DNA of 37,433 nt. It comes from Opitutia bacterium. GTDB lineage: Bacteria > Verrucomicrobiota > Verrucomicrobiia > Opitutales > Seribacteraceae. The notes under the pieces were generated by a model, which had not been told where the DNA came from, did not search any database, and worked only from the letters and a program-made list of their open reading frames with translations. A program made the position numbers and the translations under genes. The stretch lies in NCBI GenBank assembly GCA_002730975.1, contig PCBO01000036.1, forward strand, positions 1 through 37,433, read 5' to 3'. This document shows, piece after piece, positions 5,120 to 28,224 of the stretch. Each line of letters begins with the position of its first letter. Position 1 is the stretch's first letter.

Positions 5120-5185
5120 GGCGTTGATCGACAAAACGATCTTCGGAAAGGTTAGCGACACGATGATCGTCTTTTGTTTGAATAA

Positions 5186-5446: not shown

Positions 5447-5737
5447 ATGAACAATACGGATAAACAAAAAAAAATCGATTTCGTTGAGCTCGGCTTTATG
5501 GACGCCCGATGCAAGCTGATCGACGTAGCCGCCTTTCTAGACCGCACCCAAAGAGCGGGCCAGACGGACGATTATAGGGTACGAGAACTAAAAAAGGCGA
5601 TCGCCTGCCTCGATGGCGAAAACCCCGACCGAGCCAAGCAAGTCCTTCTTAGCCTAAGCGACACAACCGAGAAACCTATTGCCATTGCGCCCGGCAAAGG
5701 TGCCGCAGGAGCCTGGGAAGGTTCCGGTTCCTCATAA
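5447..5737 (+). CDS. Small conserved-looking protein at the head of the ebo cluster
   Basis: A 96-residue acidic/basic helical protein that I do not recognise with certainty. It has no signal peptide or membrane segment. The central part (LGFMDARCKLIDVAAFLDR, then VRELKKAIACL and RAKQVLLSLS) looks like a short helical bundle. The tail (PGKGAAGAWEGSGSS) is Gly/Ser-rich and probably disordered. It lies 19 bases before eboB on the same strand, so it is very likely in the same transcript. It takes the place that EboA holds in cyanobacterial ebo clusters. EboA proteins as I know them are longer, so equivalence is not shown. The ATG follows no clear Shine-Dalgarno sequence. Confidence 0.65.
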   Translation: MNNTDKQKKIDFVELGFMDARCKLIDVAAFLDRTQRAGQTDDYRVRELKKAIACLDGENPDRAKQVLLSLSDTTEKPIAIAPGKGAAGAWEGSGSS

Positions 5738-5756
5738 CTCCAAACTTTAATAAGAC

Positions 5757-6557: not shown

Positions 6558-6618
6558 AAAAGGGAACGATTTCGCGTAAGCCTCTTACCGACCATCCTTA
6601 ACCCCTAATCTTCAAGGC

Positions 6619-7794: not shown

Positions 7795-7797
7795 TCC

Positions 7798-8721: not shown

Positions 8722-8734
8722 GACTCCTTCTTTA

Positions 8735-9940: not shown

Positions 9941-9943
9941 CGC

Positions 9944-11350: not shown

Positions 11351-11549
11351 ACAAAAAATCTTGGGAAAAAATCCACTTTAACCTTGCACGTTTAAAAAAG
11401 AAGACAATTCAATGGTGGATGTCTACAGCTTTAATAAATTGGCAGGTAAAAGGTTAACCGGAAAGATTCCGGTGATTGAATAAAATTTGTAAGCCCTATC
11501 GGCCAATTCTCTCCCTTATAAAACAGAAACCCGAATCATCGAATCAATC
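11351..11549. other. Intergenic region between ebo cluster and MoxR operon with a perfect inverted repeat
   Basis: A 199-base gap with no open frame of note. At 11457-11473 a perfect 7-bp stem (ACCGGAA/TTCCGGT, 3-base loop) overlaps the palindrome GGTTAACC at 11452-11459. No T-run follows, so it is not a standard terminator; it could be an operator or a leader hairpin of the downstream operon. No convincing sigma70 promoter was found. Confidence 0.4.
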
Positions 11550-12596
11550 GTGAGTGCAGCCACCAAAAAAAAATCCACTACTACCAAAGCTTCCGCTGAC
11601 GACGAGAAAATGGCGAAAGCCCTCGTCGATGCCTATGAGAAACTTAAGGCTCAAGTACATAAAGTCATCGTGGGACAAGACGATGTCTTGGAGCAATTAC
11701 TCATCGCAATGCTAGCCCGTGGACACTGTTTGCTGGAAGGAGTACCTGGCTTGGCAAAGACGCTCATGGTACGTTCACTGTCACAGGCCATCAACTTGAG
11801 TTTCCGCCGCATTCAGTTTACCCCCGACTTGATGCCCGCCGACATTACAGGCACGGACATTATTCAAGAAGATAAAACAACTGGCCACCGACAACTCGTG
11901 TTTGAGAAAGGTCCTATTTTCAGCCAAATCGTACTGGCCGACGAAATCAACCGTACTCCCCCAAAAACTCAAGCTGCGTTGCTCGAGGCAATGCAGGAAC
12001 ACGATGTCACGGTGGGCGGAAAAACCTATCACCTCGAGGAACCGTTCTTCGTTTTGGCCACCCAAAACCCGATTGAGCAAGAAGGAACCTATCATCTACC
12101 TGAAGCTCAGCGGGATCGTTTCCTTTTCCAAGTAATCGTCGATTACCCCTCGCGAGACGAGGAACGACAAATCGTAGAGCAAACCACCTCTACGTTCGAA
12201 TCCAAGCTTGAGCCTGTACTCGACGGCAAGACCATTATGGAATGCCAAGAGACAGTGAGACGAGTACCTGTTCCGGAACATGTCTACGATTATATTCTCG
12301 ATCTCGTTCGCATGGCTCGCCCAAAGGAAGAATCAGCTCCGAAGTGGGTCAAGGATCTCATCGAATGGGGACCCGGACCGCGTGCTTGCCAGCAACTCGT
12401 ACTCGGATCCAAGGTACGAGCTCTGCTACGAGGTCGCTACCATGTAACCGTAGACGACGTGGAGGCTCTTGCTCATCCGGTTCTGCGTCACCGCATCGTC
12501 CCGACCTTCAACGCAGAAGCCGAAGGCATATCCGTAGAGTTTCTTATCGACCGTCTCCTGAAGGACGCCCCGAAGAAGCAAGAGGCCGTAATGTAA
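11550..12596 (+). CDS. MoxR-family AAA+ ATPase
   Basis: A 348-residue protein starting at GTG, with a Lys/Ser/Thr/Ala-rich leader of about 20 residues. Walker A is GVPGLAKT (residues 64-71), Walker B is VLADEINR, and sensor 1 lies in [11 protein letters not shown]. The PEAQRDRF arginine-finger region and the C-terminal lid ([11 protein letters not shown]) follow. MoxR proteins are cytoplasmic AAA+ chaperones that usually work with vWA-domain partners encoded next to them, as is the case here with the DUF58 and BatA-like genes. It is the first gene of a run of seven plus-strand genes that ends near 28224. The GTG start gives the usual MoxR length (about 330-350). Confidence 0.93.
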
Positions 12597-12637
12597 GGGT
12601 TGAACCGACCTGTAACATTTATTGAAGCACGCGGCAA

Positions 12638-13558
12638 GTGGCCACGGTAACTGACTATCTAAATCCGAAGGATCTCTCTCACCTCGCCAACCATCAGGTT
12701 TTGGCGAAGAGAGTAGTCGAAGGATTCTGCTCGGGACTTCACCGCTCACCCCACAAGGGCTTCAGCGTTGAGTTCAAGCAGCACCGGCAATACGTACCAG
12801 GGGACGAAATTCGGCACCTCGACTGGAAGGTATACGGTAAAAGCGATCGCTTTTACATCCGCGAGTACGAGGAAGAGACCAACCTGCGTTGCAACATCCT
12901 CTTAGATGCCAGCGGATCCATGGCCTACGAGGGAACTCGGACTAAAGGTAGATCCAAACTTCATTACGCTTCACGCCTAGGGGCTTGCTTATCGTACATG
13001 ATACTTAAACAAACCGATAGCGTAGGGCTTGTCACCTTCGACACAAAGATTCGGAAAGTTCTCCCACCACGCGGTCGAGCCGCTCACGTAGGCAACATCA
13101 TCGACGTATTAGAAGACACCTCACCGGGAGGAGAAACCGACCTTGGAGCCGTTTTTCACGAATTGGTTCCAAAACTTAAACGGCGTGGTCTCGTCGTAAT
13201 CATCTCGGACTGCTTCGGTGACCTGGACTCGGTGATGAACGGCTTGGCTCACTTTCGTCACGCAAAGCACGACGTGGTAATCTTTCAGATTTGGGATCCC
13301 GACGAGCTCGACTTCCCCTTCAAGCAATGGACTCGCTTCGACTGCCTGGAAATGGCCGAGAAGAAGCACACGGTCGACCCCACGCATTTGCGACAAGCGT
13401 ATTTGGAAAACTTGGAAAACTATCGAGAAAACTTCACCAAAGGTTGCTACCGAAATCGCATAGACCTCGTGCCTATGACCACCGATCAACCCTACGCGGA
13501 CGCCCTCTCGTACTATCTCGCCTTGCGGAAACGCGGGGGCAGACCTTCCAGGAAATGA
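12638..13558 (+). CDS. DUF58-domain protein with vWA fold (MoxR partner)
   Basis: A 306-residue protein starting at GTG. The hallmark of DUF58 is present as [19 protein letters not shown] followed by EYEEETN. A vWA MIDAS motif follows (LLDASGSM, DxSxS). SDCFGDL is a further vWA strand/loop. The family is the constant neighbour of MoxR ATPases and is thought to be a client or adaptor. The protein has no membrane segment and should be cytoplasmic. The gene starts 41 bases after moxR, and its TGA overlaps the ATG of the next gene (ATGA), so translation is coupled. Confidence 0.92.
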
Positions 13559-15927
13559 ATTTTCTCAACCTAGGTTTGGCATTTGGCGCTGCTGCAGTGG
13601 TCATACCGCTACTCATTCACATTTTCAACCGCAGCCGATTCAAAGTGGTCACTTGGGGAGCCATGCACTTGCTGGAATCAGTACTCCGCGTTAATCGCAA
13701 GCAGGTGCAACTCGAACAAATCATCCTGCTAATCGTTCGCTGCGCCATTCCAATCCTGCTGGCGCTTTGCTTGGCTCGCATGGTGGTAACGGATTGGGGA
13801 CCCTTCCTGCACCGAATCATTTTGCCTTTGGCGGCGTTGGCTTTCCTTATCCTCGTGGCTCTGGCGCCAAGCCTTAAGAAACTTTTCGGCACGCTTTCCG
13901 CAGCTTGCATCCTATACGCCATCGCAGCGGAGGCCGGGATTTTTGGAGGAGGATATGAAAAGAAAAACGTGAGCTCGGATTCCACGGATATCGCGGCCTC
14001 AACGGTTATCTTGCTTGACGATAGCTTTTCCATGAATGCGGATGGCGGTTTTGCCAAAGCCGGCGCATTCACCGAAGGCTTCCTGAAAAACCTCAAAAAA
14101 GGATCAGACGCCTCCGTTGTGCGGATGGGTGGAAGTGCCTCGCCCATCTTTGCCAAACCCACCTCCGAAACAGAAGCCCTCGGTGAACGATCGGGTCAAC
14201 TCAAGGCGTCCTACGACAAGGTCGATCTAATAGGATCGCTCGACGCAGGAATCGCCACCATCCATGAAGGAAGAAACGCAAAACGCGAAATTATTCTTGT
14301 CTCCGATTTCCGCAAGGCTGATTGGGAAAAGACGGGAGGGGCGCTTGCGACCTTGAAGGAAAGACTTGATAATGAACCCCTCAAGCCCGCCATCACCCTA
14401 ATCGATGTTGGGGGCTCGGCTCGAGAAAACGTTTCTGTTGATTCCATCGAACTGTCAGCTACTTCCATAGGAGTGGGGCAGAAAGTCCTTGTGCGCGCAG
14501 AACTGCGCAACCACGGAAGCTCCTCCTACGAGGGCGACCTTCAAGTTCGTCTCCTTGTGAACGAAGAGTTGAATCCGGTTGATGAAACCGTGGTAACACT
14601 CAATCCGGGTGAAACGGGCCAAGTTCTTTTCACTCACAAATTCACGGAAGCAGGTTCGACTGTAGTCACTATTGAAATTGGGGCAAGCGATGCTCTTGAC
14701 GACGACGACCGAAGGTCGGCCTCGGTTACTGTATTGGACCGTATCGGCGTACTCCTTGTCGACGGATCTCCCTCAGAGGAATGGTTAAGCGGAGAGACGG
14801 ATTTCCTTAAGCTTGCCCTCACTCCGTTCGAAGAAGCCAAGATCAAGAATTCCGTGGAAACAAAAGACTTGATCGACGCCTCGGTTGTAAGGCTCGCAAA
14901 CTTTGATCCCGCCAAGCATCTCGACGGCAACCAGAGCGTGTTGGTGCTCGCCAACGTTTCTAGCCTGGAGGATGAACAAATTTCAGCACTTTCATCCTTT
15001 GTCCGCAACGGGGGAGGAATGTGGCTTGCCCTCGGAGACAAAGTCGACGCCGATTGGTACAACGAAATTCTTGGATCAGAAACAAACGACCTTCTCCCCC
15101 TCCCCCTCCGTAACATTGGCGGAAGCTTGTCCGACGACTCCGTGCGCACTCGCGTCGTCGCTTCTCACTTCGAACACCCCGCACTCTCGCTCTTCAACGA
15201 TCGCAGGAACGGTAATCTAGCCGACGCAGACCTTTGGCGGTGGCATCGTTTAGGCGAAAGCGACGGGACTGGAACCCAAGACGCCACAGTGCTCGCAAGA
15301 CTTGAAACGGGAGATGTGTTTCTCGCTGAAAAAAAAGTGGAGAAGGGAATAGTCATACAGATGGCGACAACCGTAGACGGTGACTGGACGAACATGCCAG
15401 TTCGCTCCTGCTATTTGCCCTTAGTTCAGCAGATTGCCTCCTACCTCGCCGATCAAGTAACTCCTCCACGCAACCTGCCGGCGGGAGCAACCCTCACCCA
15501 TTATCTGCCTCAAAAGGAAGCGGGCAAAACTTTAAACGTCACGAGCCCGGACGGTTCCACCCACACCGTAAAGGCAGTAAAGCGTGGTTCACAGGCAGTA
15601 GCCGAGTTTTCCAACACACGAAAACCCGGCACCTATCAGATGGATGGAGAAGAAGGAAGCTCGGTCAAATTCGTAACAAACGCATCGCCACGGGAATCTC
15701 AACTGGATCGCATGTCGGAAGAAGAAATTCGGGAAAGCACAAATGCTCTCGCTGACTCCATCGATTTTATCGACGCCTCGGAAAAAGACGCTCTAGCCCA
15801 GTATTTGGAACTGGATGGGGCGCGAACTTTTGGTCGTGAAACATGGAAGATACTTCTCGGAGCAGTCCTTGCCTTAGTGCTGCTTGAATTAATTCTGCAA
15901 CGAATCTTCGGGAGGGTACGAACATGA
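13555..15927 (+). CDS. BatA-like membrane protein with vWA domain
   Basis: The open frame reaches back to 13291, but the real start is the ATG at 13555. There the aerotolerance BatA N-terminal domain begins ([36 protein letters not shown]), and the ATG overlaps the DUF58 stop. The product is 790 residues. There are membrane helices near 4-22, 57-75, 86-105 and 112-130, then a vWA domain with MIDAS ([10 protein letters not shown]). CARDB/Ig-like beta domains follow ([19 protein letters not shown]), then a glutamine-amidotransferase-like region ([30 protein letters not shown]). A C-terminal helix anchors the end ([19 protein letters not shown]). Most of the protein should lie in the periplasm. 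The next gene again overlaps by four bases. Confidence 0.88.
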
Positions 15928-18900
15928 ACGACGATCGCACCGGCAGCAGTTTTCACCTCGCTGGAGATATTGAACCTTGGCTGGGTATCTTACTCGCCTT
16001 GGGCACGGCCGCTCTGGCGTGGTGGCTTTACCGGCTCGAAACTAAAAAAGGAACAATTGCCCCCTTGGACAAAGTACTTCCGCTTCTTCGCGCTGTGGCG
16101 GCAGGTCTAATCGTCATGATTCTCACCGGCCCGACGATAAGCAACGTCAGTGAGAAAGGGCAGCGAGGACGGGTATTGGTTTTTCTAGATGCGTCGAAGA
16201 GCATGTCCATCAAGGACGAGCACATGTCTCCCGGTCGAAAACTGCTCTTGGCAGAAAGGCACGGCTGGCTTCCAAAGGACCAAAACCTTCTCGACCCGGC
16301 TCTTCTCGATGCCGCGGATCTTCTCGCAGAAGCTCGCATCGGATTGAATGAAGGGCTCTCGGACCCAGCCGCGGACCTAAACAAACTTAGAGAAATCTTC
16401 GCAAAAAAAGCCAAGAAAGCATCCGAACTGCTTTCGGGTAAGGAATACGAAGTTTCAACCGCTCCTGAACGCAAGGGAGTTCTTTACCATGAAGTCTGGA
16501 ATGACATACCCGACGGCACGGTCACAAGCCTCACTAATCACCCTAAATTCAAGGAAGGAAATCCGGATTCAACTAGTTACGTAACCACCGCCGAAAGTCC
16601 ATCGAACGTGGGTGACAACTTCGGCAGACGCATCAGGGGAATACTGGTGCCTCCCGAATCCGGCGATTATCGCTTTTCGGTCAACGCAGACGATGAGTGC
16701 GTGGTTCGCCTGAACAACGCCGGAGAAAATCCGAAAAACGCTCGGGAGATCTTAAACACTCAAGGAACGACCGGACCGATAGCGCTCGATCACTCAAAAC
16801 GATACTATTTTGAAATTTTACACAAGGAGGCCGGAGGCGATGATTTCTGCACGGTTGGATGGACCTTGCCCGGCGGCCGAATCGAACGCCCCATCCTTGG
16901 TAAACATTGTCGTGCGCCTAGCTACGATAGCCCACCGACCTTTCCCGAACTGCGTGAAAGCATGCGCGCCGACGTAGTAAAAGCAGCCCAGTCTTTAATT
17001 AAGGGAAAGGATGCTGCTGCAGAAACCACCATGCGCGCAACACTATCCAACCTTACCGAAACCGCCCTCTCTTATGAAAACCGGTTTCGAGACACATTTG
17101 AGGTATATGCAGAAAACCGTGCTGCAGGAGATGATGAAAATATTAAGGAAGCCATCGAATCATTCAACTCCAACGACAGATGGAAGCGAGCCACTCGACT
17201 GCTCACTCAGCGCCGAAACAGCATCCTCGAGGAATTAGCAGACACTCATATCATTGAAGTGCGTTCACTTTCCGGACTAGAAACTGAACGCCTCTGGGAC
17301 AACACTGGAGACGCCGATCCTCCACCCGATTTCGGCCGATCTCCCGAGACCCGACGCACTGACCTCGCGACAGGTTTGCAAACTGCTATCAAGGTGGACG
17401 AGGACAACGGAGAAAACAAGAATGCCAAACAATCCAGAACGGCCGCCGTTATCCTATCAGACGGTTTACACAATATCGGCGCATCCCCCTTCGAGACCGC
17501 GAAACTAATGGCTGGTCGCGACATCCCCATACACACAGTTGGTTTTGGCAGCGTAACCCCCCCTCCCGATCTAGCCGTAATCGACGTAGAAATTCCTGCC
17601 AAAGTACTCAAGGATGATCGCTTCCGAGGCTCCGTCACACTCAAAGACAACCTGACTCCGGGTACCCCCTTCAAGATCGTGATCGAGGACGACCTGAATC
17701 AGACCATATGGGAAGAAAGCTTTTCCGGTATGAGCGCAACGCGTCGACGAGTCGCTTTTGATTTCTCTGTCGAAGAACTGGTGGAGGAAAAAATATCCAA
17801 CCTTGGCTTGGACAACAGTGTCGAGGTTAACGCAGTCCCCTTTCGCATGAAAGTACGTGTGGAGCCAGTTGAGGGTGAAGCTCGTGGCGACAATAACGTT
17901 CTATCGTTCGCTTTCGACGCCATCACGAAGAAGAACAAAATGCTCATCATCGACGGTCGACCGCGGTGGGAAACCCGTTACCTACACAATCTATTTGAGC
18001 GTGACGAGCGGTGGACAGTGACAGTCGCCTTCGCGGGTCCGGGTTCCGACGATGGAGCCCTACCCCGTGGCGAAGAAGGAGATGTATTTCCCGCCGACAA
18101 AAAATCTCTCTTCTCTTACGACCTACTGGTGTTAGGCGAAATAGCCCAAGGCCTTTTCAAAGAAGAGGAACTGGAATGGATTCGCGATTTTGTGGCCAGC
18201 AGGGGAGGCGGCATAATACTTTTGGACGGTCCTCGGCAAAAGTTTCGTGAATACGCCAATGACGAAGACAACCCGATCGCCTCACTTCTTCCCGTTAAAT
18301 GGAATGAAGACGGTCCCAAGCGACTAGCTCCACAGGCACTTCGCCTAACAGAGCGGGGTCTTTCTACGCCCTCTCTCTTCCTCCACCCTTCAGCCGAACG
18401 CAGCGCCGAACTCTGGGGCTATGTCCCAAAACCCGGTTGGGTTGCCCCCACCGAAGCCCTGCCCGGAACAGACGTGTATCTCGAGGCAACTCTAGATGAA
18501 AAAGGCGAAGAATCCGTACCACTGCTCGTTTCGCGGAAAGTGGGGGCCGGAAAGACTCTATATGCTGGTTTCGACGGCACTTGGCGCTGGCGTTTCGAGG
18601 TAGCCGACAAATACCACCAGCGCTACTGGCACCAAATAGCCTCTTGGATTATGGAAAAGCCATTTGCGGTAAGCGACCAATTAGTTGCCATTGATCCCGG
18701 CTCATCCACTTATCGCCCCGGCGAATCAGCTGCTCTTCGAATTCGAGTTCGCGACCGCGATGGGAAACCTCTCGATGACCCAAAAGCAGGGGTTGAGGCG
18801 TTAATCTGGAAAGAAGGTAAGATCGTGTCCACCGTACCGATGAAAACAGACCCCGACTCGGGCGGTCTCTTCCGTGGCGAAACCCCGGCGCTCAGTCCCG

Positions 18901-19232
18901 GAGAACACCAAGTTACAGTACGCGTAGACGGTCTTTTCGAAGAAGATGAACTGCGAAGCAAGGTTGAGTTTCTCGTCCGAGAGCCTGAAAGTCCGGAACT
19001 GGCAACGCTAATTTGCAAGGAGGATCTTCTTAGAGACGTGGCCAAGCTTTCGGGCGGAAGCTACCTGCGTGAAGAACAAATAGGGCGATTAAACGATTTG
19101 CTAAAGCCTATAAGCTCAGGCAGGCTCGTGAAAAAGGAAATCGCTCTTTGGCAAAGTTACTGGTGGTTCGTGCCTATCATTTTATTGTTAGGCTTGGAAC
19201 TCTTCCTGAGAAAACGGGCAGGCATGCTTTAA
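15924..19232 (+). CDS. Large vWA membrane protein carrying a PA14 domain
   Basis: A 1102-residue protein. Two N-terminal membrane helices (residues about 12-33 and 47-68) precede a vWA start with MIDAS DASKS (VFLDASKSMS, near 92). A PA14 domain follows at about 184-325 (GVLYHEVWNDIP, VPPESGDYRFSVNADDEC, YYFEILHKEAGGDDFCTVGW). After a helical stretch the vWA fold resumes near 505 (AAVILSDGLHN, HTVGFGS). Beta domains, a GATase-like region (MLIIDGRPRWETRYLHNLF) and a C-terminal membrane helix (WWFVPIILLLGLELFL) complete it. PA14 is a carbohydrate-binding or adhesive beta-barrel in many secreted proteins; its place inside the vWA region is unusual. The gene overlaps the BatA-like gene by four bases and lies 19 bases before the DUF4175-like giant. 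Confidence 0.86.
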   Translation: MNDDRTGSSFHLAGDIEPWLGILLALGTAALAWWLYRLETKKGTIAPLDKVLPLLRAVAAGLIVMILTGPTISNVSEKGQRGRVLVFLDASKSMSIKDEHMSPGRKLLLAERHGWLPKDQNLLDPALLDAADLLAEARIGLNEGLSDPAADLNKLREIFAKKAKKASELLSGKEYEVSTAPERKGVLYHEVWNDIPDGTVTSLTNHPKFKEGNPDSTSYVTTAESPSNVGDNFGRRIRGILVPPESGDYRFSVNADDECVVRLNNAGENPKNAREILNTQGTTGPIALDHSKRYYFEILHKEAGGDDFCTVGWTLPGGRIERPILGKHCRAPSYDSPPTFPELRESMRADVVKAAQSLIKGKDAAAETTMRATLSNLTETALSYENRFRDTFEVYAENRAAGDDENIKEAIESFNSNDRWKRATRLLTQRRNSILEELADTHIIEVRSLSGLETERLWDNTGDADPPPDFGRSPETRRTDLATGLQTAIKVDEDNGENKNAKQSRTAAVILSDGLHNIGASPFETAKLMAGRDIPIHTVGFGSVTPPPDLAVIDVEIPAKVLKDDRFRGSVTLKDNLTPGTPFKIVIEDDLNQTIWEESFSGMSATRRRVAFDFSVEELVEEKISNLGLDNSVEVNAVPFRMKVRVEPVEGEARGDNNVLSFAFDAITKKNKMLIIDGRPRWETRYLHNLFERDERWTVTVAFAGPGSDDGALPRGEEGDVFPADKKSLFSYDLLVLGEIAQGLFKEEELEWIRDFVASRGGGIILLDGPRQKFREYANDEDNPIASLLPVKWNEDGPKRLAPQALRLTERGLSTPSLFLHPSAERSAELWGYVPKPGWVAPTEALPGTDVYLEATLDEKGEESVPLLVSRKVGAGKTLYAGFDGTWRWRFEVADKYHQRYWHQIASWIMEKPFAVSDQLVAIDPGSSTYRPGESAALRIRVRDRDGKPLDDPKAGVEALIWKEGKIVSTVPMKTDPDSGGLFRGETPALSPGEHQVTVRVDGLFEEDELRSKVEFLVREPESPELATLICKEDLLRDVAKLSGGSYLREEQIGRLNDLLKPISSGRLVKKEIALWQSYWWFVPIILLLGLELFLRKRAGML

Positions 19233-19251: not shown

Positions 19252-22200
19252 ATGAGTGTACAAGTAGATCCAATCATCCTACAAAAACTGGAAGACTTTC
19301 GACGCAGACGTCGAAACCTAATTTTCCTTCGTGGATTCTGTTCGGCAGTTGTTAGTCTGCTTGCGGTTTTCTCCACAATCGCGGTGGCCGATTATCTTGT
19401 AAGCGGATATGCTCAAGGTGGAATGCCCGACGAGGTGAGAACCGCTCTTTCCTATTTAGGATATGGGGTTGTCGTCTTTGCAGTATGGCGCACCTGCGCT
19501 CGCTTGCTCATACACCTTCCAAGCAGAAGGCATCTCGCCAGACTGATCGAGCAAACCGCTCCTGATCTCAGGGAGGACTTATTGTCCGCAGTAGAACTAG
19601 GAAGAGATGACGGGGCCGAACTCGACTCCGAAATTTTTCGCAACTTGGTCCAAAAAGACGTTTCGTCGAGAGTCAAGGACTTGGACATGTCCAACGCTCT
19701 CCCACTGACCCGGCTTCGACGTTGGCTTCAAGCTACCGCCGCGTTGATCGCATTTACCTTTGTCTTACTCAACATTCCCGATTTTGGAGGCCAATTCCAG
19801 CAACTCATGGGCCGAGCCCTTCTTCCTGGAGCTAACATAGCCCCCTTGACTGACATCGAAGTAACGATTCTGGCTCCAAATATCGAAAAAACCATTACCC
19901 CAAAAAGTGAACCTCTTCGATTCTTGGTCGAAGTCAAAGGGAAAGATAAAGATCAGACCTTTGGACGCGTTGAACTGGAAACAAAGATAAAGAACGCCAA
20001 GTTAAATCCCGTTGCCATGGCTCCTCGCCAAGCAAATCAGTTCTCGCTAGACTACAACGTAGACCGTGAAAAATTCGAATACCGAATTTGGGTGGACGGT
20101 TCGCCTCGCACAAAATGGTTCGACATGGACGTTGCCTCTCGACCCTACGTCACCTCCTTCACCAAGACCTACCGCTATCCCGAATATACCAAGCTAGAGC
20201 CAATTACCGCAAAAGAAGACCGTGGCGATTTGTCTGGTTGGGAAGGTACCGAAGTTGACCTTGTTCTTAATACAAACCAAGTCGTAACTGAAGGTACGAT
20301 GGAGTTGGACCTTACGGGAGGAGGCCTTTCGAAACTTCAACTTTCACCGACCGCCGATGGAAAAGGGCTAAAGACCACGCTCGTTCTAGTAAAGCCGGGC
20401 ACCTACCACACCTTGGGAGTCACCTCCCAAGAAACAGGTTGGAAAAGCAAGCCTTCGCAGGCTTATGAAATTGCCGTGCAACTGGACGAAGCTCCCGCCA
20501 TTCGAATCGTCTCCCCGGAAGAAAAATCCCAGCTTCTTGCACCCGACGACATACTTGGCTTGACCGCAATGGCCGAAGACGACCTTGCGCTGGAAAAGAT
20601 CGAGTACCATGTTCGCGTGAACAATCGTGGTTGGCAAAAATTTCCCGTTCCCGGCCTCGAGACGCCCATCGACGAAAAAAACGTCGTTCTGCAATTCGAC
20701 TTGGATCTGCTCGAGCTAAAACTCCGCCCCAATGACAGTGCCACCCTCAAGCTGGTCGCCTACGACCGGAAGGGAGCAATCGGTGAATCCGACCCCATAC
20801 AGCTTTCAATCATTTCTCGTGACCTTGATCTCTCCGCCATCCGGACCATCAAGCTTAAGAGCCTACTTATGGAAGGCGTAACCGAACTCGCCGAGGCCGC
20901 CGAGGCCCGAGCAAAGGAAAACAACGAGCTTTACTCGACCTTCCTAAAAAAGAATGGAGAGCCCATCTCCGGAGCAACAGCCGATAGCATGCGCTCCCTA
21001 ACGCGTTCCCTGGTCGAGGAAAGCACCCTCATGTTCGATCAAACTTTGACCACCTTGACCGCCATGCCACGCGGAACCGACTCCTTCGAAGTCGCACTTG
21101 TTACTCGCGCCATTAATGCGATAAACCAACTGCGACCGGGAATTGCCTCCACTCATGCCGAAACGGCCCTGGCTTCCGAAGACTCTAAAGTTCGCAAACA
21201 AGCCGTACAGGACTTGAAGGGATCGATCGAGTCCGACAAGGGATTACTCGGGAACCTAAGGAACATGGCAAAGGTTATACTAGACCAGCAAGTACTAGCC
21301 GTAGGTACGACATACCTTAGGCAACTGTTGAAAAATCAAAGAGAATTAATCGAGTTGGCCAAGGGTGAATATCATTACAAACTGATTGCTCGGAGGCAAG
21401 AAGTTGCCCTCAATCATTGGCGAACCATCGAGAATGTTTTTAAGGCCGGCAGCAATCGTCGGAGTTCGGCAACGAGGCAAATCACCAAACAAGAGGGTAG
21501 CCTGCGAGCTGCCCTAGACGCCGAAACACCCGATAGGGCAACACTTGCGAGTGAGATCTCTAAGTGGAACGACAGCGTCAGACGATTTCACGAAGTGGAA
21601 CAAAACTTACTTCGTAGCAGAACCCGTTCACTTCGATCAAACCGAGAAAACTTCCTCTGGCAAGTTCGAGACTCTTGGCATGGGATTGATGAATTCGCCC
21701 AAAAAATCACTTTGCTCAACTCGAATGAAAAAGAATACGCAGGAATGGGACGCATCTTGGGAGATCGGGAATGGCCTGCCTTGGTATCGGAGCTTCAAGG
21801 GAGATCTCGCTTGGAAGAGTCTCGAAAGGATGCCGATTCAGCATTCGTCAAGGACACCGGTCAAGCATCCAGAGCCCTTCAAGCTCTCGGGAACCAGTTC
21901 AGGTCGCAAATAACAGCTGGCGAAGAGACTGTCGTTATCGCCACCAAAATCAGGGAAATAGCATATCTCTTTCGTCTTCTGGAAGTCTATCATCAAGTCG
22001 TGGAAGCCTCAGGGCTCGCATCGACCTTTGCCAACAAGGAGAAATGGGAAATGATGAAATCGGACAACCGTGCGGAACGAGCCATCCACTGGGCTGCCGC
22101 AGCCTCCCCATGGCGTGCCCTCTCCGGAAAAATTGCAGGCATACCCTTAGATCAGTTGGGCGGATCCAACGAGGATCGAAACGAAGCTGCCAAAATCCTT

Positions 22201-25200
22201 CGCGATCTGCGTAAGCAAGCTTACACCACCGCCATCGAATCCGAAATGCAAATGCGGGTCGAAAATTTCGAGCGCAAGCCAAGCTCGACAAGTAAGAAAA
22301 TTGATTTGGTGCACGCGGACTTGCGAAAAGTTCTACAACTTCTGAAACCGGCGGTCATCGAATCTCGAAAAAAGCTCAATGACATCGCCCCTACCCTAGC
22401 CGAATTGGCTCGCCAACTGGCCGAAGAGGCCCGAAAGGCGCAAACCGTGTCCGAGGCCATCGTGCAAAAACCTGAAGAAGAAGCGCAAGAGGTTCGACAA
22501 GAGACCGCTAAGCTTCAAACCAAGCAACGTGAACTGGGCGCAGAAATCACCCTTTTCAACGCAGCCTTAAGGCAAGAGGCAAACGTACAGAACGTTCTGG
22601 ATGATGAAGGCAGGGAAATCGCCCGCGACGCCGACGATGCGGCCGCGCTCGTCCAAGACAAAGAAAACTCGGCAGAAACTGCCATAGAGAAAGCTCTCCA
22701 AGCTACCGATAGAGGAGCCCAAAACGAAAACCTGAACGAAGCTGCTGAAAGCCAAGGTGAATTGGCCGAAGTGCTCGATGCAATTGCCGATCACTTCGAA
22801 CGAGTTGAGAAAGGCGAGGAAGTCACCGAATCTCGGGAGGAACTTCGACAAGCCGAAGAAGACTTGGGCATACAGGATCAAATCGAGGAACAATTTGCAC
22901 AAGCCGAACGCCTTGCCGAATTAGCGCAACTTTCACCTGAAGAACTCCTCGCTGAGCTGGAAAAGGAACTGTCCGACAACGAACCCATGCAGAAGGAACT
23001 GTCCGAAATCGCCGAGGACACCATTGCCGAGGCCGAGGAAGCCCTCGAGGCGGCAGCCGAGGAAGAGGAGGAGATCGCAGAGCAACTGGAGAACACCGAT
23101 GAGGAGCTCGTTGATGAAAAGAAGGTATTGGCAAAGGAACTGGCGGAACTGGCGCTTGACATCAAGAGATTGGCCGATCGCGAAGTGAGGCAAGCCTCGC
23201 ATCTGGCGCGCCAAGCCAGTGCGGGTGAAGCTTTCGAGGAACTGACCGAAACACGAGAAGAACTACTTGAACTAGCACAGGACACTAAGGAAGATGCAAA
23301 ACCTGAGGAAACCGCTGCCGAACTTGCCCAAACCGCCCAAGATCTGGTCGAACCACTCCTCGAAGAGGCGGGCGACCTAGCCGAGGCCGCAGATGCAGCA
23401 GAAGCCGTTTCAAATCAAAGCCCGGAACAAGCCAACGAACAAGCGGAGGAGAGAGCGGCGAATGCTGAAGAAGCCCAAGCAAAAGCTGAGCAAGCTCAGG
23501 AACAAGCGGATACCGCCGAAGCTAAAGCCGAGCCCGCCCGCCAAGAAGCAGCTCAAGCCGTGCAAGAAGCCTTGAAAGCGGAGCAGGATGCTGCATTCGC
23601 ACAGCAAAAGGCGCAGGATGCTTCTGAGGATGCTGCCCAACAGCCTGACAATCAGTCTGCCCAAGCTCAAGCACGGCAATCTCAAGAGACAGCTCAAGAG
23701 GCTCAAAAGGAAGCACAAGCCGCCCAACAGGTAGCACAGCAGGCGCAGGAGCAAGCCAATCAACTTGCTCAAGAAGCAAATGCCGCTGAAGAGTCCGCTC
23801 AACAAGCTCAGGCAGAAGCCGATGAAGCACAGCAAAACGCCGACTTCGCAGAGGAAAGAGCAGAAAGAAAACCATCTCAGGTCGCTGCGTCGCAAAAAAA
23901 TGCCCAACAAGCGCAAGAACAAGCTGAAGCCGCCTCCGAAAAAGCCACCGATTTGGCTCAACAAGCTCAAGAAATCGCAGCCAAGCTCGACGAGCTCAGT
24001 GAAGGCGCTTCCCCCGACACGGAAGCCTTGGCGCAGGCTCAAGAGCAGCAGGAAGATGTAGGGGAAGACGTATTTGAAGCCGCCCAAGACGTAGCCAGAG
24101 CCGCTCGCCACGAGGAACGACTTGGCAACGAACAGGCAGCTGAGGAACTCTCTGAAATCGCCGAAGGAGCAGAGCAAGCCGCACAACAAGAAGTCGCTCA
24201 GGCGGGCCAGGAGTTGCAAAATGCTGAACTAGCTCAACAACTGGAAGATTTGGCACAGGACGCTCAAGAGATTGCTCAGGGACAAGAGGCCCAACAAGCT
24301 GCCCAACAAAACCAGCAAGCAGAACAGGCGCAGCAGGCTCTGCAGGAAGCCGGCCAAGAAGCCCAACAAGCTGCTGAAAGCCAACCGGACTTTCAAGAAT
24401 TGGGTGAAGCGGCCGATGATTTTGCCCAAGAAGCTCAACAAGCCGCTGATGATTTTGCCCAAGCAGCCGAGCAGGCTCAGCAACAAGCCGAACAGGCGCA
24501 GCAGCAGGCTCAACAGGCGCAGCAGCAGGCTCAACAGGCTCAGCAGCAGGCTCAACAGGCTCAACAGCAAGCTCAGCAAGAAGGGCAGCAAGCAGAGCAA
24601 GCCCAGCAACAAGCCGAACAAGCCCAGCAGCAAGCCACCGCGCAACCACAAAATGCCGAAGCCCAGCAGCAAGCCCAACAAGCTCAACAGCAAGCCACGC
24701 AAGAAGGACAAGAAGCGCAACAAGCCCAGCAACAATCTCAACAAGCCCAGCAAGAAGCGCAACAAGCCCAGCAACAATCTCAAGAGGCTCAACAGTCCGC
24801 GCAGGAAGCGGGTCAACAGGCACAAGCGGGTCAAGAAGCAGCACAAGAAGCAGCAGAATTAGCCGAAGCAGCCGATGCTTTTGCCGACGCGTTCCCCGAG
24901 GAACCCGCATTCGCAGATGCCTTTCCGCAAGATTCTCCGCCTGAGGATGGTTTTCCGCAAGATAACTTTGGGGAAGCTCTGGCGGCTGCCGAGCAAGCCA
25001 TTGGAGAACAAGCCGAGGCTCTCGAAGCCTTCGGTGAAGGCGAAGGTCAAGGTCAAGGTGAAGGTGAAGGCGAGGGTCAAGGTGAAGGTCAAGGTGAAGG
25101 TCAAGGTGAAGGTGAAGGTGAAGGCGAAGGTCAAGGTGAGGGTCAAGGCGAAGGTCAAGGTGAGGGTCAAGGCGAAGGTCAAGGCGAGGGTCAAGGCGAA

Positions 25201-25938
25201 GGTCAAGGCGAGGGTCAAGGCGAGGGTCAAGGCGAGGGTCAAGGCGAAGGTCAAGGCGAAGGTCAAGGCGAGGGTCAAGGCCAAGGTCAAGGTGAGGGTC
25301 AAGGCCAAGGTCAAGGCGAGGGCCAACAGGGAAGTCCTAGCGATGCTCCTCTTACCAATCCCGAAACAGCGCAGGCGCTCGCCCAAACTCTTGATTCATT
25401 GGATCAAGCGCTAAATCCATTTGAAAACCCATTCGGTGATGACGCATTCCCTGCTGAAGATGGATTCCCTTCGGATTCTCCATTGGCTCAAGCGGCGCAG
25501 GCCGCTCAATCCGGCCAACCGGGCGAAGGCCAACCGGGAGAAGGACCACCGGGCCAAGGACCACCGGGCCAAGGACCACCGGGCCAAGGGCAACCGGGCC
25601 TAGCAACTCAAGCGGCACAAGCAATGGCCGCCGCAGCACAGGCTATGGCTGCTGCGGCACAAGCTCAAATGGCTCAATCTCGGATTCCCGGACAAAGCCC
25701 AAAAAGCGAAGGTCTTCAACTCAATTCTGGTGAAGGAGCCGCCGTTCAAGCAGGAGCTATGGCCTTCCAAGACTTACCCGCCATGACGGAAATGTCTAAA
25801 CTGGAATGGGGGCGCCTACCTCCCAAACTAGCGAAAGACCTAATGGATGGTCGCAGGGAAGCCGTATCCGGCGAGTACCGCAACCGCGTGGAAGCTTACT
25901 TCCGAGCAATGGCTGATAAATCTCGAAAGAAAAAGTGA
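19252..25938 (+). CDS. Giant DUF4175-like membrane protein with Ala/Gln/Glu coiled coil and Gly-Glu-Gly-Gln repeats
   Basis: A 2228-residue protein. Two N-terminal helices (about 22-48 and 64-86) and a third near 159-178 anchor it in the inner membrane. Residues 180-530 look like beta-rich Ig-type modules, as in DUF4175-like proteins beside BatA genes (FRFLVEVKGKD-type strands, YRYPEYTKLEP). Residues 530-1100 are helical. About 1100-1870 is an extreme Glu/Ala/Gln coiled coil. Phe-Pro-Asp/Ala-Phe patches (FADAFPEEP, FPQDNF) come next, then about 98 residues of GEGQ/GQGE repeats (1928-2025), a Pro-Gly-Gln stretch (2090-2118) and an Ala/Met/Gln stretch. A folded C-terminus ends the protein (WGRLPPKLAKDLMDG, YRNRVEAYFRAMADKSRKKK), which resembles the conserved end of this family. 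Family members are usually about half this length, so the repeats are an expansion. A structural, perhaps wall-spanning, role is inferred. Confidence 0.82.
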   Translation: MSVQVDPIILQKLEDFRRRRRNLIFLRGFCSAVVSLLAVFSTIAVADYLVSGYAQGGMPDEVRTALSYLGYGVVVFAVWRTCARLLIHLPSRRHLARLIEQTAPDLREDLLSAVELGRDDGAELDSEIFRNLVQKDVSSRVKDLDMSNALPLTRLRRWLQATAALIAFTFVLLNIPDFGGQFQQLMGRALLPGANIAPLTDIEVTILAPNIEKTITPKSEPLRFLVEVKGKDKDQTFGRVELETKIKNAKLNPVAMAPRQANQFSLDYNVDREKFEYRIWVDGSPRTKWFDMDVASRPYVTSFTKTYRYPEYTKLEPITAKEDRGDLSGWEGTEVDLVLNTNQVVTEGTMELDLTGGGLSKLQLSPTADGKGLKTTLVLVKPGTYHTLGVTSQETGWKSKPSQAYEIAVQLDEAPAIRIVSPEEKSQLLAPDDILGLTAMAEDDLALEKIEYHVRVNNRGWQKFPVPGLETPIDEKNVVLQFDLDLLELKLRPNDSATLKLVAYDRKGAIGESDPIQLSIISRDLDLSAIRTIKLKSLLMEGVTELAEAAEARAKENNELYSTFLKKNGEPISGATADSMRSLTRSLVEESTLMFDQTLTTLTAMPRGTDSFEVALVTRAINAINQLRPGIASTHAETALASEDSKVRKQAVQDLKGSIESDKGLLGNLRNMAKVILDQQVLAVGTTYLRQLLKNQRELIELAKGEYHYKLIARRQEVALNHWRTIENVFKAGSNRRSSATRQITKQEGSLRAALDAETPDRATLASEISKWNDSVRRFHEVEQNLLRSRTRSLRSNRENFLWQVRDSWHGIDEFAQKITLLNSNEKEYAGMGRILGDREWPALVSELQGRSRLEESRKDADSAFVKDTGQASRALQALGNQFRSQITAGEETVVIATKIREIAYLFRLLEVYHQVVEASGLASTFANKEKWEMMKSDNRAERAIHWAAAASPWRALSGKIAGIPLDQLGGSNEDRNEAAKILRDLRKQAYTTAIESEMQMRVENFERKPSSTSKKIDLVHADLRKVLQLLKPAVIESRKKLNDIAPTLAELARQLAEEARKAQTVSEAIVQKPEEEAQEVRQETAKLQTKQRELGAEITLFNAALRQEANVQNVLDDEGREIARDADDAAALVQDKENSAETAIEKALQATDRGAQNENLNEAAESQGELAEVLDAIADHFERVEKGEEVTESREELRQAEEDLGIQDQIEEQFAQAERLAELAQLSPEELLAELEKELSDNEPMQKELSEIAEDTIAEAEEALEAAAEEEEEIAEQLENTDEELVDEKKVLAKELAELALDIKRLADREVRQASHLARQASAGEAFEELTETREELLELAQDTKEDAKPEETAAELAQTAQDLVEPLLEEAGDLAEAADAAEAVSNQSPEQANEQAEERAANAEEAQAKAEQAQEQADTAEAKAEPARQEAAQAVQEALKAEQDAAFAQQKAQDASEDAAQQPDNQSAQAQARQSQETAQEAQKEAQAAQQVAQQAQEQANQLAQEANAAEESAQQAQAEADEAQQNADFAEERAERKPSQVAASQKNAQQAQEQAEAASEKATDLAQQAQEIAAKLDELSEGASPDTEALAQAQEQQEDVGEDVFEAAQDVARAARHEERLGNEQAAEELSEIAEGAEQAAQQEVAQAGQELQNAELAQQLEDLAQDAQEIAQGQEAQQAAQQNQQAEQAQQALQEAGQEAQQAAESQPDFQELGEAADDFAQEAQQAADDFAQAAEQAQQQAEQAQQQAQQAQQQAQQAQQQAQQAQQQAQQEGQQAEQAQQQAEQAQQQATAQPQNAEAQQQAQQAQQQATQEGQEAQQAQQQSQQAQQEAQQAQQQSQEAQQSAQEAGQQAQAGQEAAQEAAELAEAADAFADAFPEEPAFADAFPQDSPPEDGFPQDNFGEALAAAEQAIGEQAEALEAFGEGEGQGQGEGEGEGQGEGQGEGQGEGEGEGEGQGEGQGEGQGEGQGEGQGEGQGEGQGEGQGEGQGEGQGEGQGEGQGEGQGQGQGEGQGQGQGEGQQGSPSDAPLTNPETAQALAQTLDSLDQALNPFENPFGDDAFPAEDGFPSDSPLAQAAQAAQSGQPGEGQPGEGPPGQGPPGQGPPGQGQPGLATQAAQAMAAAAQAMAAAAQAQMAQSRIPGQSPKSEGLQLNSGEGAAVQAGAMAFQDLPAMTEMSKLEWGRLPPKLAKDLMDGRREAVSGEYRNRVEAYFRAMADKSRKKK
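24475..24800 (+). repeat. In-gene tandem repeats coding Ala-Gln-Gln heptads
   Basis: Near-identical 21-base units (CAACAGGCGCAGCAGCAGGCT and variants) repeat through the coiled-coil part of the giant gene. They encode Q-Q-A-Q-Q-Q-A type heptads in one unbroken frame. Synonymous differences between units show that the protein pattern, not only the DNA, is maintained. Confidence 0.85.
25033..25323 (+). repeat. In-gene 12/18-base tandem repeats coding Gly-Glu-Gly-Gln
   Basis: About 290 bases made of GGTCAAGGCGAG / GGTGAAGGTCAA units, encoding nearly pure Gly at odd positions with Glu or Gln between. The units vary mostly at third positions (GGC/GGT, GAA/GAG), which suggests selection on the protein. 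Length variation between strains by slippage is likely here. Confidence 0.9.
25519..25605 (+). repeat. In-gene repeat coding Pro-Gly-Gln (collagen-like) units
   Basis: Short repeats with CCGGGCCAAGGACCA units encode PGQGPPGQ-type sequence. They lie between the Gly-Glu-Gln block and the conserved C-terminus of the giant protein. The Gly spacing is not strictly every third residue, so a real collagen triple helix is not implied. Confidence 0.75.
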
Positions 25939-25970
25939 GATTTGTTCAATTTTGCTATAAGTTATTAAAA

Positions 25971-27059
25971 ATGAAGTTTCTACTTTTATTTCTATTCCTA
26001 GTGCGGACAGCAATAGCTCCGTTATCGGGAGAGGAAGAAGTTCCTTCCGGCGATGAAGTCGGAAATCCCTTCCAAAAGGATAAGGTGGACAAGGCGATAG
26101 AAAAAGGAATTGCCTATATCGCCAAGAAGCAACAATCCGACGGATCCATTCATGACAGGGGAAATCCCACCACCATGACTGCCCTATCGCTAATGTCGAT
26201 GGCGGCAGTGGGTCACCAACCGATCAACCCAAACGAAGAAGGTCGTGTCATGCGGCGTGGAATCGATTTCGTGCTTAAAGAAGGAAGGCAAGACGAACAT
26301 GGCTATTTTGGGAACAGGGACGGAGGACGCATGTATGGTCACGGAATCATCACTTTGACACTCTCGGAAATGCTGGGAATGGGATTGGACGAAGAACAGG
26401 ACCAAAAGATTCGCAGGAGTACCCAAAAGGCAATAAACTTGATATTGCGTTCGCAAAAAGTGCCCAAAAGCCCATCCCACCAAGGTGGCTGGCGATACTC
26501 CCCCGATGCCAGAGACGCCGACCTTTCCGCCACCATCTGGCAACTGATGTCACTGCGTTCGGCAAAAAACGCAGGACTGGACGTGCCCTCTTCGGCAATA
26601 GAGGAAGCCGTTGGATACCTCCAAAGGTCCTATCACTCCAGCCTCGATTCTAAAGGTGAACCGGTGAACAAGAAATCAGGATTTGCCTACCAACCGGGAG
26701 GTCATCCCGAGTACACCACTACCGCAGCGGGTTTACTAGCCATGCAGGTATGCGGAGAATACGACTCCCCATTCGTCAAAGGGGCTTCCGACTGGCTTTT
26801 GGAAAACGAGCCCAATACCGGTAGAAAATTCTTTTTTTACGGAACCTATTATTATTCGCAAGCCATGTACCAACGCGGTGACGAACACGCGAAAATCGCC
26901 CGCAAGAAGGTGGAAGAGATTATGCTGAAACTTCAGCGAGGAGACGGATCATGGCATGGCAGCGGTTCCGAAAACAGTGCCGGACAAGTCTATTCGACTT
27001 CCATGGCAATTCTCGCCTTGGCAGTCAAATACCACTACTTGCCGATCTACCAGCGCTGA
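25971..27059 (+). CDS. Secreted alpha/alpha-toroid protein with squalene-cyclase/prenyltransferase-type repeats, copy 1
   Basis: The frame also opens at GTG 25935, overlapping the previous stop, but the ATG at 25971 gives a proper signal peptide (MKFLLLFLFLVRTAIA). That makes 362 residues instead of 374. The mature protein has squalene-oxidase/prenyltransferase-like repeats: QSDGSIHDRGNPTTMTALSL, GYFGNRDGGRMYGHGIITL, SHQGGWRYSPDARDADLSAT, EYTTTAAGLLAMQVCGE and RGDGSWHGSG. The DxDD acid motif of squalene-hopene cyclases and the thioester GCGEQ motif are both missing, so an enzyme of either type is not indicated. Homologues occur beside MoxR/DUF58/vWA genes in planctomycetes and verrucomicrobia. 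It is probably a periplasmic binding or scaffold protein of this operon; no direct function is known. Confidence 0.8.
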   Translation: MKFLLLFLFLVRTAIAPLSGEEEVPSGDEVGNPFQKDKVDKAIEKGIAYIAKKQQSDGSIHDRGNPTTMTALSLMSMAAVGHQPINPNEEGRVMRRGIDFVLKEGRQDEHGYFGNRDGGRMYGHGIITLTLSEMLGMGLDEEQDQKIRRSTQKAINLILRSQKVPKSPSHQGGWRYSPDARDADLSATIWQLMSLRSAKNAGLDVPSSAIEEAVGYLQRSYHSSLDSKGEPVNKKSGFAYQPGGHPEYTTTAAGLLAMQVCGEYDSPFVKGASDWLLENEPNTGRKFFFYGTYYYSQAMYQRGDEHAKIARKKVEEIMLKLQRGDGSWHGSGSENSAGQVYSTSMAILALAVKYHYLPIYQR

Positions 27060-27123
27060 GAAGGCGTTTCCACTGCAATTACCGGTCAGAAACAATATTT
27101 TCGGCCCAAGGATCATCTTGTAA

Positions 27124-28224
27124 GTGAAATTTGCTTTCGTTTGTAAAACCTTGTGCCTACTTGGACTGCCATTTGGTTGGCAAGCCGCCCATTCGGAGGA
27201 ACAGGGAACGAATGTTCCAACCGGCAACCCCTTTCAGCAGGACAAGGTGGACAAAGCCATCAAAAAGGCAGTCAGCTTTCTTGCCGAGAAGCAACAAGCG
27301 GACGGTTCCATTCACGACAAGGGCAACCAGACTACCATGACGTCCCTCTCCTTGATGGCAATGGCTGCCGTAGGTCACCAACCCGTGAACCCCACCGCGG
27401 AGGGACGTGTCATGCGACGAAGCCTCGATTACGTCCTGCGCGAAGACAGGCAGGACGACCAAGGCTACTTCGGCAACAGGGACGGCGGAAGGATGTATGG
27501 GCACGGCATCATCACCTTAATGTTATCCGAGATGCTTGGGATGGGACTGGACGAGGAGCAAGACCAACGCATCCGGAAGCGCTGCCAAAAGGCGATAGAC
27601 CTTATCTTGCGTTCACAAAAAGTCCCCAAACGACCGCCATCCCACCAAGGCGGTTGGCGCTACACCCCGGATTCCCGTAACGCCGATCTCTCGGCCACCA
27701 TTTGGCAACTCATGTCCCTGCGCTCGGCCAAGAATGCAGGTATGGACATACCTTCTTCCGCAATAGAAGACGCCATCGGCTATCTTCGGCGTTCCTATTA
27801 TTCACGGCTCGATTCCAAAGGCGACCCGGTGAACAAGAAATCGGGATTTGCCTACCAACCAGGCGGTGGTCCCGAGTACACCACAACCGCAGCGGGTTTA
27901 CTCGCCATGCAGGTATGCGGAGAATACGAGTCCCCCTTCGTCAAAGGAGCCGCCGACTGGCTTTTGGACAATGAACCCAATACCGGTAGAAAATTCTTTT
28001 TGTACGGAACCTACTATTATTCTCAAGCCATGTACCAACGCGGTGGCGAACACGCGAAAATCGCCCGCAAGAAGGTGGAGGAGATTATGCTGAAACTTCA
28101 GCGAAGGGACGGATCATGGCATGGCAGCGGTTCCGAAAACAGCACCGGACTAGTCTATTCCACTTCCATGGCAATTCTGGCCTTAGCAGTAAAATACCAC
28201 TACCTGCCGATCTACCAGCGTTAG
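27124..28224 (+). CDS. Secreted alpha/alpha-toroid protein, tandem paralogue (copy 2)
   Basis: A 366-residue protein starting at GTG with a signal peptide (MKFAFVCKTLCLLGLPFGW, ending near HSEEQ). From NPFQQDKVDKAI onwards it matches the preceding gene residue by residue with few changes. Long stretches are also nearly identical as DNA, for example around 28070-28200 against 26910-27040. The signal peptides differ clearly. The spacer between the copies is 64 bases. Copy 2 has one extra residue before the SHQGGWRY segment (KRPPSHQG). The pair arose by tandem duplication; the homogeneous 3' parts suggest a recent event or gene conversion. The function is as uncertain as for copy 1. No terminator with a T-run follows the stop. 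Confidence 0.8.
   Translation: MKFAFVCKTLCLLGLPFGWQAAHSEEQGTNVPTGNPFQQDKVDKAIKKAVSFLAEKQQADGSIHDKGNQTTMTSLSLMAMAAVGHQPVNPTAEGRVMRRSLDYVLREDRQDDQGYFGNRDGGRMYGHGIITLMLSEMLGMGLDEEQDQRIRKRCQKAIDLILRSQKVPKRPPSHQGGWRYTPDSRNADLSATIWQLMSLRSAKNAGMDIPSSAIEDAIGYLRRSYYSRLDSKGDPVNKKSGFAYQPGGGPEYTTTAAGLLAMQVCGEYESPFVKGAADWLLDNEPNTGRKFFLYGTYYYSQAMYQRGGEHAKIARKKVEEIMLKLQRRDGSWHGSGSENSTGLVYSTSMAILALAVKYHYLPIYQR

Follow-up and report, generated by a model that had tools for sequence, protein, structure and literature searches.

A bacterial membrane protein with roughly 1,080 residues of strongly biased composition is encoded in the 37,433-nucleotide stretch of DNA analysed here (the window), which lies within an 81.7-kb contig of the draft genome (3.85 Mb, 152 contigs) of a marine Verrucomicrobiota bacterium. 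The open reading frame (positions 19252-25938, forward strand) is intact, without interruption, and specifies 2228 amino acids. Residues rich in Ala, Glu and Gln, followed by Gly-Glu-Gly-Gln (GEGQ), Pro-Gly-Gln and Ala-Met-Gln blocks, are flanked by an N-terminus of Ig-like and helical domains and by a conserved C-terminus; positions 22400-25610, which the initial annotation described as an extreme low-complexity expansion, correspond to aa 1050-2120. In our analysis the biased composition is real but was partly misread, and it is the length-lock that is the point of interest: some 680 residues, in which the letters change but the length hardly does, probably fold back into a helical stalk that belongs to an envelope complex encoded by six genes (Table 1).

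Table 1. Features of the 2228-aa protein and its operon; positions are those of the window.
Feature	Position	Strand	Evidence
MoxR AAA+ ATPase	11550..12596	+	PF07726 E 6e-64
DUF58 protein	12638..13558	+	PF01882 E 2e-43
BatA/VWA membrane protein; start overlaps DUF58 stop by 4 bp	13555..15927	+	PF07584, PF13519; four hydrophobic segments
Second VWA-type membrane protein; 4-bp overlap	15924..19232	+	PA14 E 1e-8; DASKSMS MIDAS-like motif; C-terminal hydrophobic segment
Membrane anchor, aa 1-199; predicted membrane helices 7-53, 60-87, 152-173	19252..19848	+	AlphaFold2; conserved phylum-wide (N_TM profile)
Three Ig/FN3-like beta-sandwich domains, aa 200-525; DUF4175-homologous part	19849..20826	+	AlphaFold2 pLDDT ~90; Foldseek; hhalign
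Folded all-helical domain, aa 527-1040; faster evolving, indel-tolerant	20830..22371	+	AlphaFold2; indel rate
Short antiparallel helices (C1-C2), aa 1041-1345; in most phylum relatives	22372..23286	+	Profiles, AlphaFold2
Near-fixed-length helical region, aa 1092-1770	22525..24561	+	Orthologue lengths, indels; dN/dS 0.08
Predicted antiparallel hairpin, aa 1391-1537; helices of 73 + 70 residues, turn P1465	23422..23862	+	AlphaFold2 pLDDT ~90
Second long predicted hairpin, aa 1714-1880; 84 + 79 residues, turn QPQN at 1799, holds AQQAQQQ heptads	24391..24891	+	AlphaFold2
21-bp tandem repeats coding AQQAQQQ heptads	24465..24794	+	Tandem Repeats Finder; copies differ in codons, exact repeats up to 33 bp
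(Gly-Glu/Gln)n disordered linker, aa 1928-2025; lineage-specific, variable	25033..25326	+	Repeats, orthologues, pLDDT <35
Conserved NPETAQALAQTLDSLDQALNPFENPF motif, aa 2033-2062	25348..25437	+	Columns invariant across 14 orthologues
Pro-Gly-Gln tandem block, predicted disordered	25516..25600	+	Tandem Repeats Finder, AlphaFold2
Ala-Met-Gln block, aa 2117-2141	25600..25674	+	Orthologue sequences; AlphaFold2 helix
C-terminal motif W..LPPKLAKDL....E.V...YR..V..YF..MA, aa 2185-2228	25804..25935	+	Alignment of orthologues and same-genome paralogues
Alpha/alpha-toroid protein, signal-peptide-like N-terminus; 4-bp overlap with 2228-aa gene	25935..27059	+	PF13243 E 4e-9; adjacency kept phylum-wide
Second alpha/alpha-toroid protein, tandem copy	27124..28224	+	PF13243 E 1e-8

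The biased region is part of a selected protein

The residue composition recovers more than 1000 biased residues in the block order first described: Glu/Ala at aa 1101-1400, Ala/Gln at 1401-1900, Gly/Glu/Gln at 1901-2030, then Pro/Gly/Gln and Ala/Met/Gln at 2080-2145. At the DNA level, Tandem Repeats Finder confirms two arrays with a 21-bp (7-aa and 21-bp) unit, at 24465-24794 and 25615-25664, one with a 12-bp unit (25049-25319) and one with a 15-bp unit (25516-25600). Comparison with orthologues shows that the biased stretches are broken up by the conserved segments RQEANVQNLLDEEGREIARDADDAAALV, ARAARHEERLGN and NPETAQALAQTLDSLDQAL. Since orthologous frames are kept in relatives and dN/dS is 0.08 over aa 1092-1747 (against the nearest sister, 95% identical), this is a selected protein and not a chance frame. 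Long antisense open reading frames (up to 304 aa, for example 23996-24910 on the reverse strand) were not taken as genes and are regarded as by-products of biased codons, and a Pfam TrAA12 match (E 1e-7, aa 1976-2034), inside the GEGQ block and just under the cut-off, was dismissed as a composition artefact.

Perhaps repeat collapse or expansion during assembly created the biased blocks. The genome is a draft, and the contigs of four relatives (L035, L037, L041 and L134) stop inside GEGQ, which leaves the copy number of that block uncertain. However, the longest exact repeat in the biased region is 40 bp, the frame is intact, the same architecture occurs in independently assembled genomes, and the 95%-identical sister contig, which has two heptads fewer, gave an independent reading of the AQQ copy number. 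As an explanation of the biased blocks, an artefact is thus hardly credible.

Length is conserved where sequence is not

The N-terminal 916 residues, used as query, retrieved relatives in 27 of the 42 genomes of the family, and the full-length orthologue set comprised 14 proteins of 2111-2491 aa, the window protein included. The comparison of lengths called for by the initial annotation separates two kinds of sequence. In all 14 orthologues aa 1092-1770 measure 671-679 aa, at a mean identity of about 0.43 (alignment anchored on conserved residues), with successive segments of 39, 87, 32, 47, 94, 146, 31/33, 51, 37/38, 30-40 and 73 residues. Strong length variation is confined to the AQQAQQQ heptads (aa 1771-1870) and the GEGQ block (aa 1928-2028).

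The same partition is seen in indel events per 1000 substitutions: aa 1092-1540 have 1.5 and aa 1541-1770 have 6.9, the helical domain (aa 530-1091) has 19.2, and the AQQ and GEGQ blocks reach 28 and 69. The Ig part (6.0) and the membrane part (1.9) match the core in their scarcity of indels, so it is against the helical domain and the variable blocks that the core stands out. Gaps occur in 13 of 681 columns of the core versus 37 of 574 in aa 530-1091 (Fisher p 6e-5, which is indicative because neighbouring columns are not independent). One orthologue (L036, positions 2329-9804) has an insertion of roughly 270 aa within the helical domain, its core unchanged at 679 aa, and was excluded from the indel rates. 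The summed fraction of Ala, Glu and Gln in aa 1092-1770 is 0.61 in the window protein versus 0.42-0.57 in the other, less biased orthologues, and invariant motifs, seen as columns across the 14 orthologues, occur within the biased region.

It is possible that a fast-evolving, non-essential region was simply filled with Ala, Gln and Glu by slippage, its length unselected. Such neutral drift would explain the strong bias, the real tandem repeats, the lineage-differing composition and the lack of GEGQ in most orthologues. It is refuted for aa 1092-1770 by the near-constant length, the few indels, the low dN/dS and the invariant motifs, and fits only aa 1771-1870 and 1928-2028; as a general account we consider it highly unlikely. 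Hence the term expansion suits about 100 residues of AQQ and about 100 of GEGQ, but not the roughly 680 residues of conserved length.

Coiled coils of divergent sequence and conserved length have been interpreted as spacers (PMC5082667), and those of synaptonemal-complex proteins are depleted in indels (PMC8598163). Fixed length, low identity and few indels, as in aa 1092-1770, constitute this published signature of coiled-coil spacers. Scarcity of indels is common to coiled coils in general, and it does not prove a ruler.

According to sub-region profiles, relatives throughout the phylum have the membrane anchor and the Ig region, and most also have C1-C2 and the C-terminal tail, whereas segments C3-C4 (aa 1346-1720) are confined to the query family and to family f16. 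Given this confinement, a gain of about 400 residues of the fixed region predates the divergence of these two families of the order; the length has been kept since, and the gain is not recent slippage. A peptide-pattern scan of genome contigs added no relatives to the near ones.

Predicted fold

AlphaFold2 models aa 1-1040 at a mean pLDDT of 86.9, with three predicted membrane helices, as expected of the membrane-anchored N-terminus originally proposed, beta-sandwiches at 200-525 and helices up to 1040. There is one strong hydrophobic segment (28-46), with RRRRR just before it. Foldseek and VIA match the Ig region to Ig, FN3 and alpha-2-macroglobulin MG domains. The alpha-2-macroglobulin match (Z 9.6 over 93 residues) stays at the level of the common Ig fold and was rejected as evidence of kinship; the presence of toroid proteins together with MG-like domains is suggestive.

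For aa 1041-2228 the mean pLDDT is 70.4 and pTM 0.35, with helices at 80-95 in most of 1290-1580 and 1660-1880. This coil model is a monomer built from 19 sequences, with low-confidence packing that does not distinguish hairpin pairing within a chain from pairing between chains. Its longest helices, joined by tight turns, span 1391-1463, 1468-1537, 1714-1797 and 1802-1880, and Pro is conserved at the turns of the first hairpin, which belongs to segment C3. Beyond 1880 disorder is predicted through GEGQ and Pro-Gly-Gln, with helices at the Ala-Met-Gln block and the C-terminus. Across all orthologues Pro and Gly make up 12.9% of predicted loops versus 1.5% of helix cores, a sign of consistency and not independent proof because the model used the same alignment. 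A Foldseek search of the stalk gave no match at E<=0.001, an absence made uninformative by the low-confidence packing, and profile matches of helical parts to designed helical bundles were discarded as probably composition-driven.

Hydrophobic helical or heptad periodicity is found in aa 1241-1640 and 1741-1870 (period 3.44-3.65, power 15-30 versus a shuffle 99th percentile of 6.4-8.5). A heptad-like period of about 3.5 was detected in 1341-1640 and 1741-1870 (best period 3.44-3.56), and by comparison with shuffles a simple heptad fit is absent in 1141-1240 and 1641-1740. The periodicity and the predicted helices agree with the very long helical region initially perceived.

At a rise of 0.15 nm per residue, a straight helix of 770-790 residues would measure about 115 nm. 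The initial annotation had already argued that one straight rod could not be housed in a periplasm, and AlphaFold2 indeed folds the region back as antiparallel helices of at most 84 residues, the longest corresponding to about 12.6 nm (monomer, pTM 0.35), so that no 115-nm rod is predicted. The main argument against such a rod is that conserved Pro/Gly breaks recur every 35-85 residues. An extended parallel, multi-stranded coiled coil, a TolA-like or Omp-alpha-like rod spanning or running along the envelope, would accommodate this periodicity and the Ala-rich cores, which suit several-stranded coils, and periplasm-spanning coiled coils do exist, for example Omp-alpha (PMC5082667). The Pro/Gly breaks, the predicted hairpins, the length of a straight helix and the arm covariation described below nonetheless make an extended rod unlikely.

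The variable blocks

In the AQQ block, the window and its sister L035 are exactly two heptads apart, one per predicted hairpin arm. Over 16 orthologues the arms measure 66-94 and 65-88 residues, with steps mostly of 7 residues, and their lengths covary (Pearson 0.82 raw; 0.75 with phylogenetic independent contrasts, permutation p 0.005). This covariation is only suggestive, because the turn positions were picked by eye from the sequences and because dropping either member of the sister pair weakens it (r about 0.53 and p about 0.05). Slippage by 21 bp could account for the 7-residue steps of the repeats.

GEGQ is present in the genus of the window, in genus g4 and in family f16, and most other orthologues have different or shorter linkers. 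The bias of the Ala-Met-Gln block is present as initially noted, but by comparison with the orthologue sequences the block is a degenerate, biased copy of a conserved helix, A.ALQ.L..A..A.AQ.M.Q.R.

A conserved operon with several copies

The 2228-aa gene is the fifth of an operon encoding MoxR, DUF58, BatA-VWA, VWA-PA14, the 2228-aa protein and an alpha/alpha-toroid protein, in an order conserved across the phylum and with 4-bp overlaps at three junctions. In the fourth gene the PA14 domain (about aa 204-322) splits VWA-like sequence, lying between the DASKSMS motif and the rest. The two toroid proteins at 25935-28224 (squalene-cyclase-like fold) are closely similar, in tandem and both with signal-peptide-like starts; most relatives show one.

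Three more divergent copies of the operon are found in the same genome (L141, L142 and L143, on contigs 25, 44 and 46), although not every gene is seen in each stretch. Their fifth gene encodes a DUF4175-type protein ending in the related motif VP/LP..F...V..YY/F; in L142 it is present as two open reading frames (547 + 569 aa), with the motif on the second. The conserved C-terminus of the initial annotation includes a motif common to orthologues: those in Verrucomicrobiota keep W..LP..LA.DL...E....EYR..VE.YF.A.A, more weakly in the most distant ones, and it is the most widely shared signature, present in part also in paralogues. A far longer relative of 3680 aa (L136, positions 7656-18698) shares the anchor and ends in a C-terminal motif of the related type, and its stretch also holds MoxR, DUF58, VWA and toroid genes detected by BLAST.

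Upstream of the operon, at 5757-11350, lies an Ebo-like metabolite-traffic cluster with TatD-like, EboE (equivalog E 9e-130), UbiA-like, 3-dehydroquinate-synthase-like and phosphodiesterase/nucleotide pyrophosphatase proteins. Directly after the operon, a 1237-aa FG-GAP/ASPIC-UnbV (CRTAC1-like) protein is encoded at 28341-32054, followed on the opposite strand by a TonB-dependent receptor at 32253-34433. The reverse strand encodes a polyphosphate kinase 2 domain protein at 2-1498, truncated at the edge of the window, and at 4598-5161 a sigma-70/ECF-type factor.

Distant kinship to DUF4175

The protein was initially called DUF4175-like. It scores below the Pfam DUF4175 (PF13779) cut-off of 27.3 bits, with no family at E<=5 for aa 1-1070 and no DUF4175 match over the full length. 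The best score among orthologues is 26.7 bits (G021), and one of 27 alignment members matches DUF4175 (E 3.9e-9). TIGR02302 (aProt_lowcomp; cut-off 394.3 bits) does not match the window frame at E<=10, and the best score in the genome, 14.8 bits, lies elsewhere. Nevertheless, hhalign of the orthologues against ten paralogues and relatives, most of them recruited by the PF13779 profile and several above its cut-off, gives a probability of 99.7 and E 7.4e-26 over 455 columns. The name is therefore fair as a statement of distant kinship despite the failed cut-offs, and not as membership of the Pfam family.

A proposed folded-back stalk in an envelope complex

The spacer signature, the operon and the topology together point to a stalk or scaffold. 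We infer that the 2228-aa protein is most likely an inner-membrane-anchored periplasmic scaffold or spacer of a Bat-type complex, and we lean, somewhat beyond an even chance, towards the fuller proposal of a scaffold or stalk subunit of a MoxR-DUF58-VWA complex whose tail docks to a partner. Three membrane helices would anchor the protein in the inner membrane, with three Ig-like domains and the helical domain on the periplasmic side, as the positive-inside rule suggests. The stalk would consist of antiparallel helices of fixed length, among them two long hairpins (about 10.5 and 12.5 nm); selection would act on its length and helical register, whereas its letters may drift toward Ala, Gln and Glu. 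The conserved C-terminal motif would be carried by a flexible Gly/Gln/Glu/Pro linker and most likely docks on an operon partner, which would be one of the VWA proteins or the toroid protein, whose translation is coupled to that of the stalk. Low complexity would be a by-product of a coiled coil with a nearly freely drifting surface, together with slippage in the linker and heptads gained or lost in one hairpin. The domain layout, the operon, the constraint on length and the pattern across lineages come directly out of the computation, and the hairpins, the disorder and the topology are predictions.

A more specific scenario is that of a periplasmic length gauge, in which the length-locked hairpin bundle, with one hairpin undergoing whole-heptad changes in both arms, sets the distance of the docking motif from the membrane while the linker is free to expand. 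We regard this gauge as a tentative idea. Alternatively, the hairpins might be tentacles that grip periplasmic clients like Skp/OmpH or prefoldin, with MoxR and VWA proteins as loading machinery. Two studies describe MoxR AAA+/VWA pairs as chaperones for protein complexes (PMC3893208, PMC9976466), a precedent to which the Gln/Ala-rich surfaces and the weak matches of profiles to OmpH and to designed bundles of antiparallel helices may be added. Yet the helical-bundle matches are probably composition-driven, no client is known and gripping needs no fixed length, so that client-binding tentacles seem improbable and we retain the stalk.

Stretches that would be masked by a repeat filter can thus belong to those parts of a bacterial protein whose length is most constrained. 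A cheap test, based on indels per substitution, register steps and arm covariation, separates structural helical spacers from junk expansions. The analysis also highlights a widespread, multi-copy Verrucomicrobiota envelope system, MoxR-DUF58-VWA-VWA-stalk-toroid, in which the C-terminal motif offers a mutational handle for finding the partner.

Comparison with known systems

Among the closest known systems are the Bat operons (Bacteroides aerotolerance; MoxR, DUF58, BatA, BatB, BatD), the functions of whose complexes are unsettled (PMC3557215). In the window MoxR AAA+, DUF58, a BatA N-terminal domain and VWA proteins are likewise encoded in one direction, with the same order of MoxR, DUF58, BatA-VWA and second VWA, and a large membrane protein with Ig-like domains comes next. 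The 2228-aa frame and its neighbours have no BatD or TPR Pfam match, and the window operon differs by adding the stalk protein and the alpha/alpha-toroid proteins.

DUF4175 and TIGR02302 proteins resemble the 2228-aa protein in having N-terminal membrane helices followed by an Ig-like region matched by the DUF4175 profile, and TIGR02302, by its model name (aProt_lowcomp) only, in a long biased C-terminal half. Paralogues in the same genome and relatives exceed the Pfam cut-off, and those examined in the genome share the operon. In contrast, the 2228-aa protein is more than twice the model length, and its fixed-length hairpin region is not seen outside the two families. In Rhodobacter, the envelope regulator CenR has a TIGR02302 gene among its targets (PMC9275681). 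AdvA of Acinetobacter baumannii is given in an excerpt as an essential, division-linked DUF4175 protein, and that excerpt describes neither a MoxR/VWA operon nor a long coil (PMC7481262). It is the main functional lead found here for a DUF4175 protein, and has the DUF4175 name and membrane anchoring in common with the 2228-aa protein.

The full-length protein has no Pfam TolA domain match. In TolA, long helices rich in Ala and charged residues connect a membrane anchor to a further module. Omp-alpha of Thermotoga is a periplasmic helical spacer that likewise leads from a membrane anchor to another module (PMC5082667). Both differ from the 2228-aa protein, for which antiparallel hairpins rather than one rod are predicted. 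SYP proteins, golgins and Rad50 are unrelated and mostly eukaryotic, and the whole-heptad steps of the 2228-aa protein are confined to one hairpin, but all share with it a conserved length, few indels and divergent sequence.
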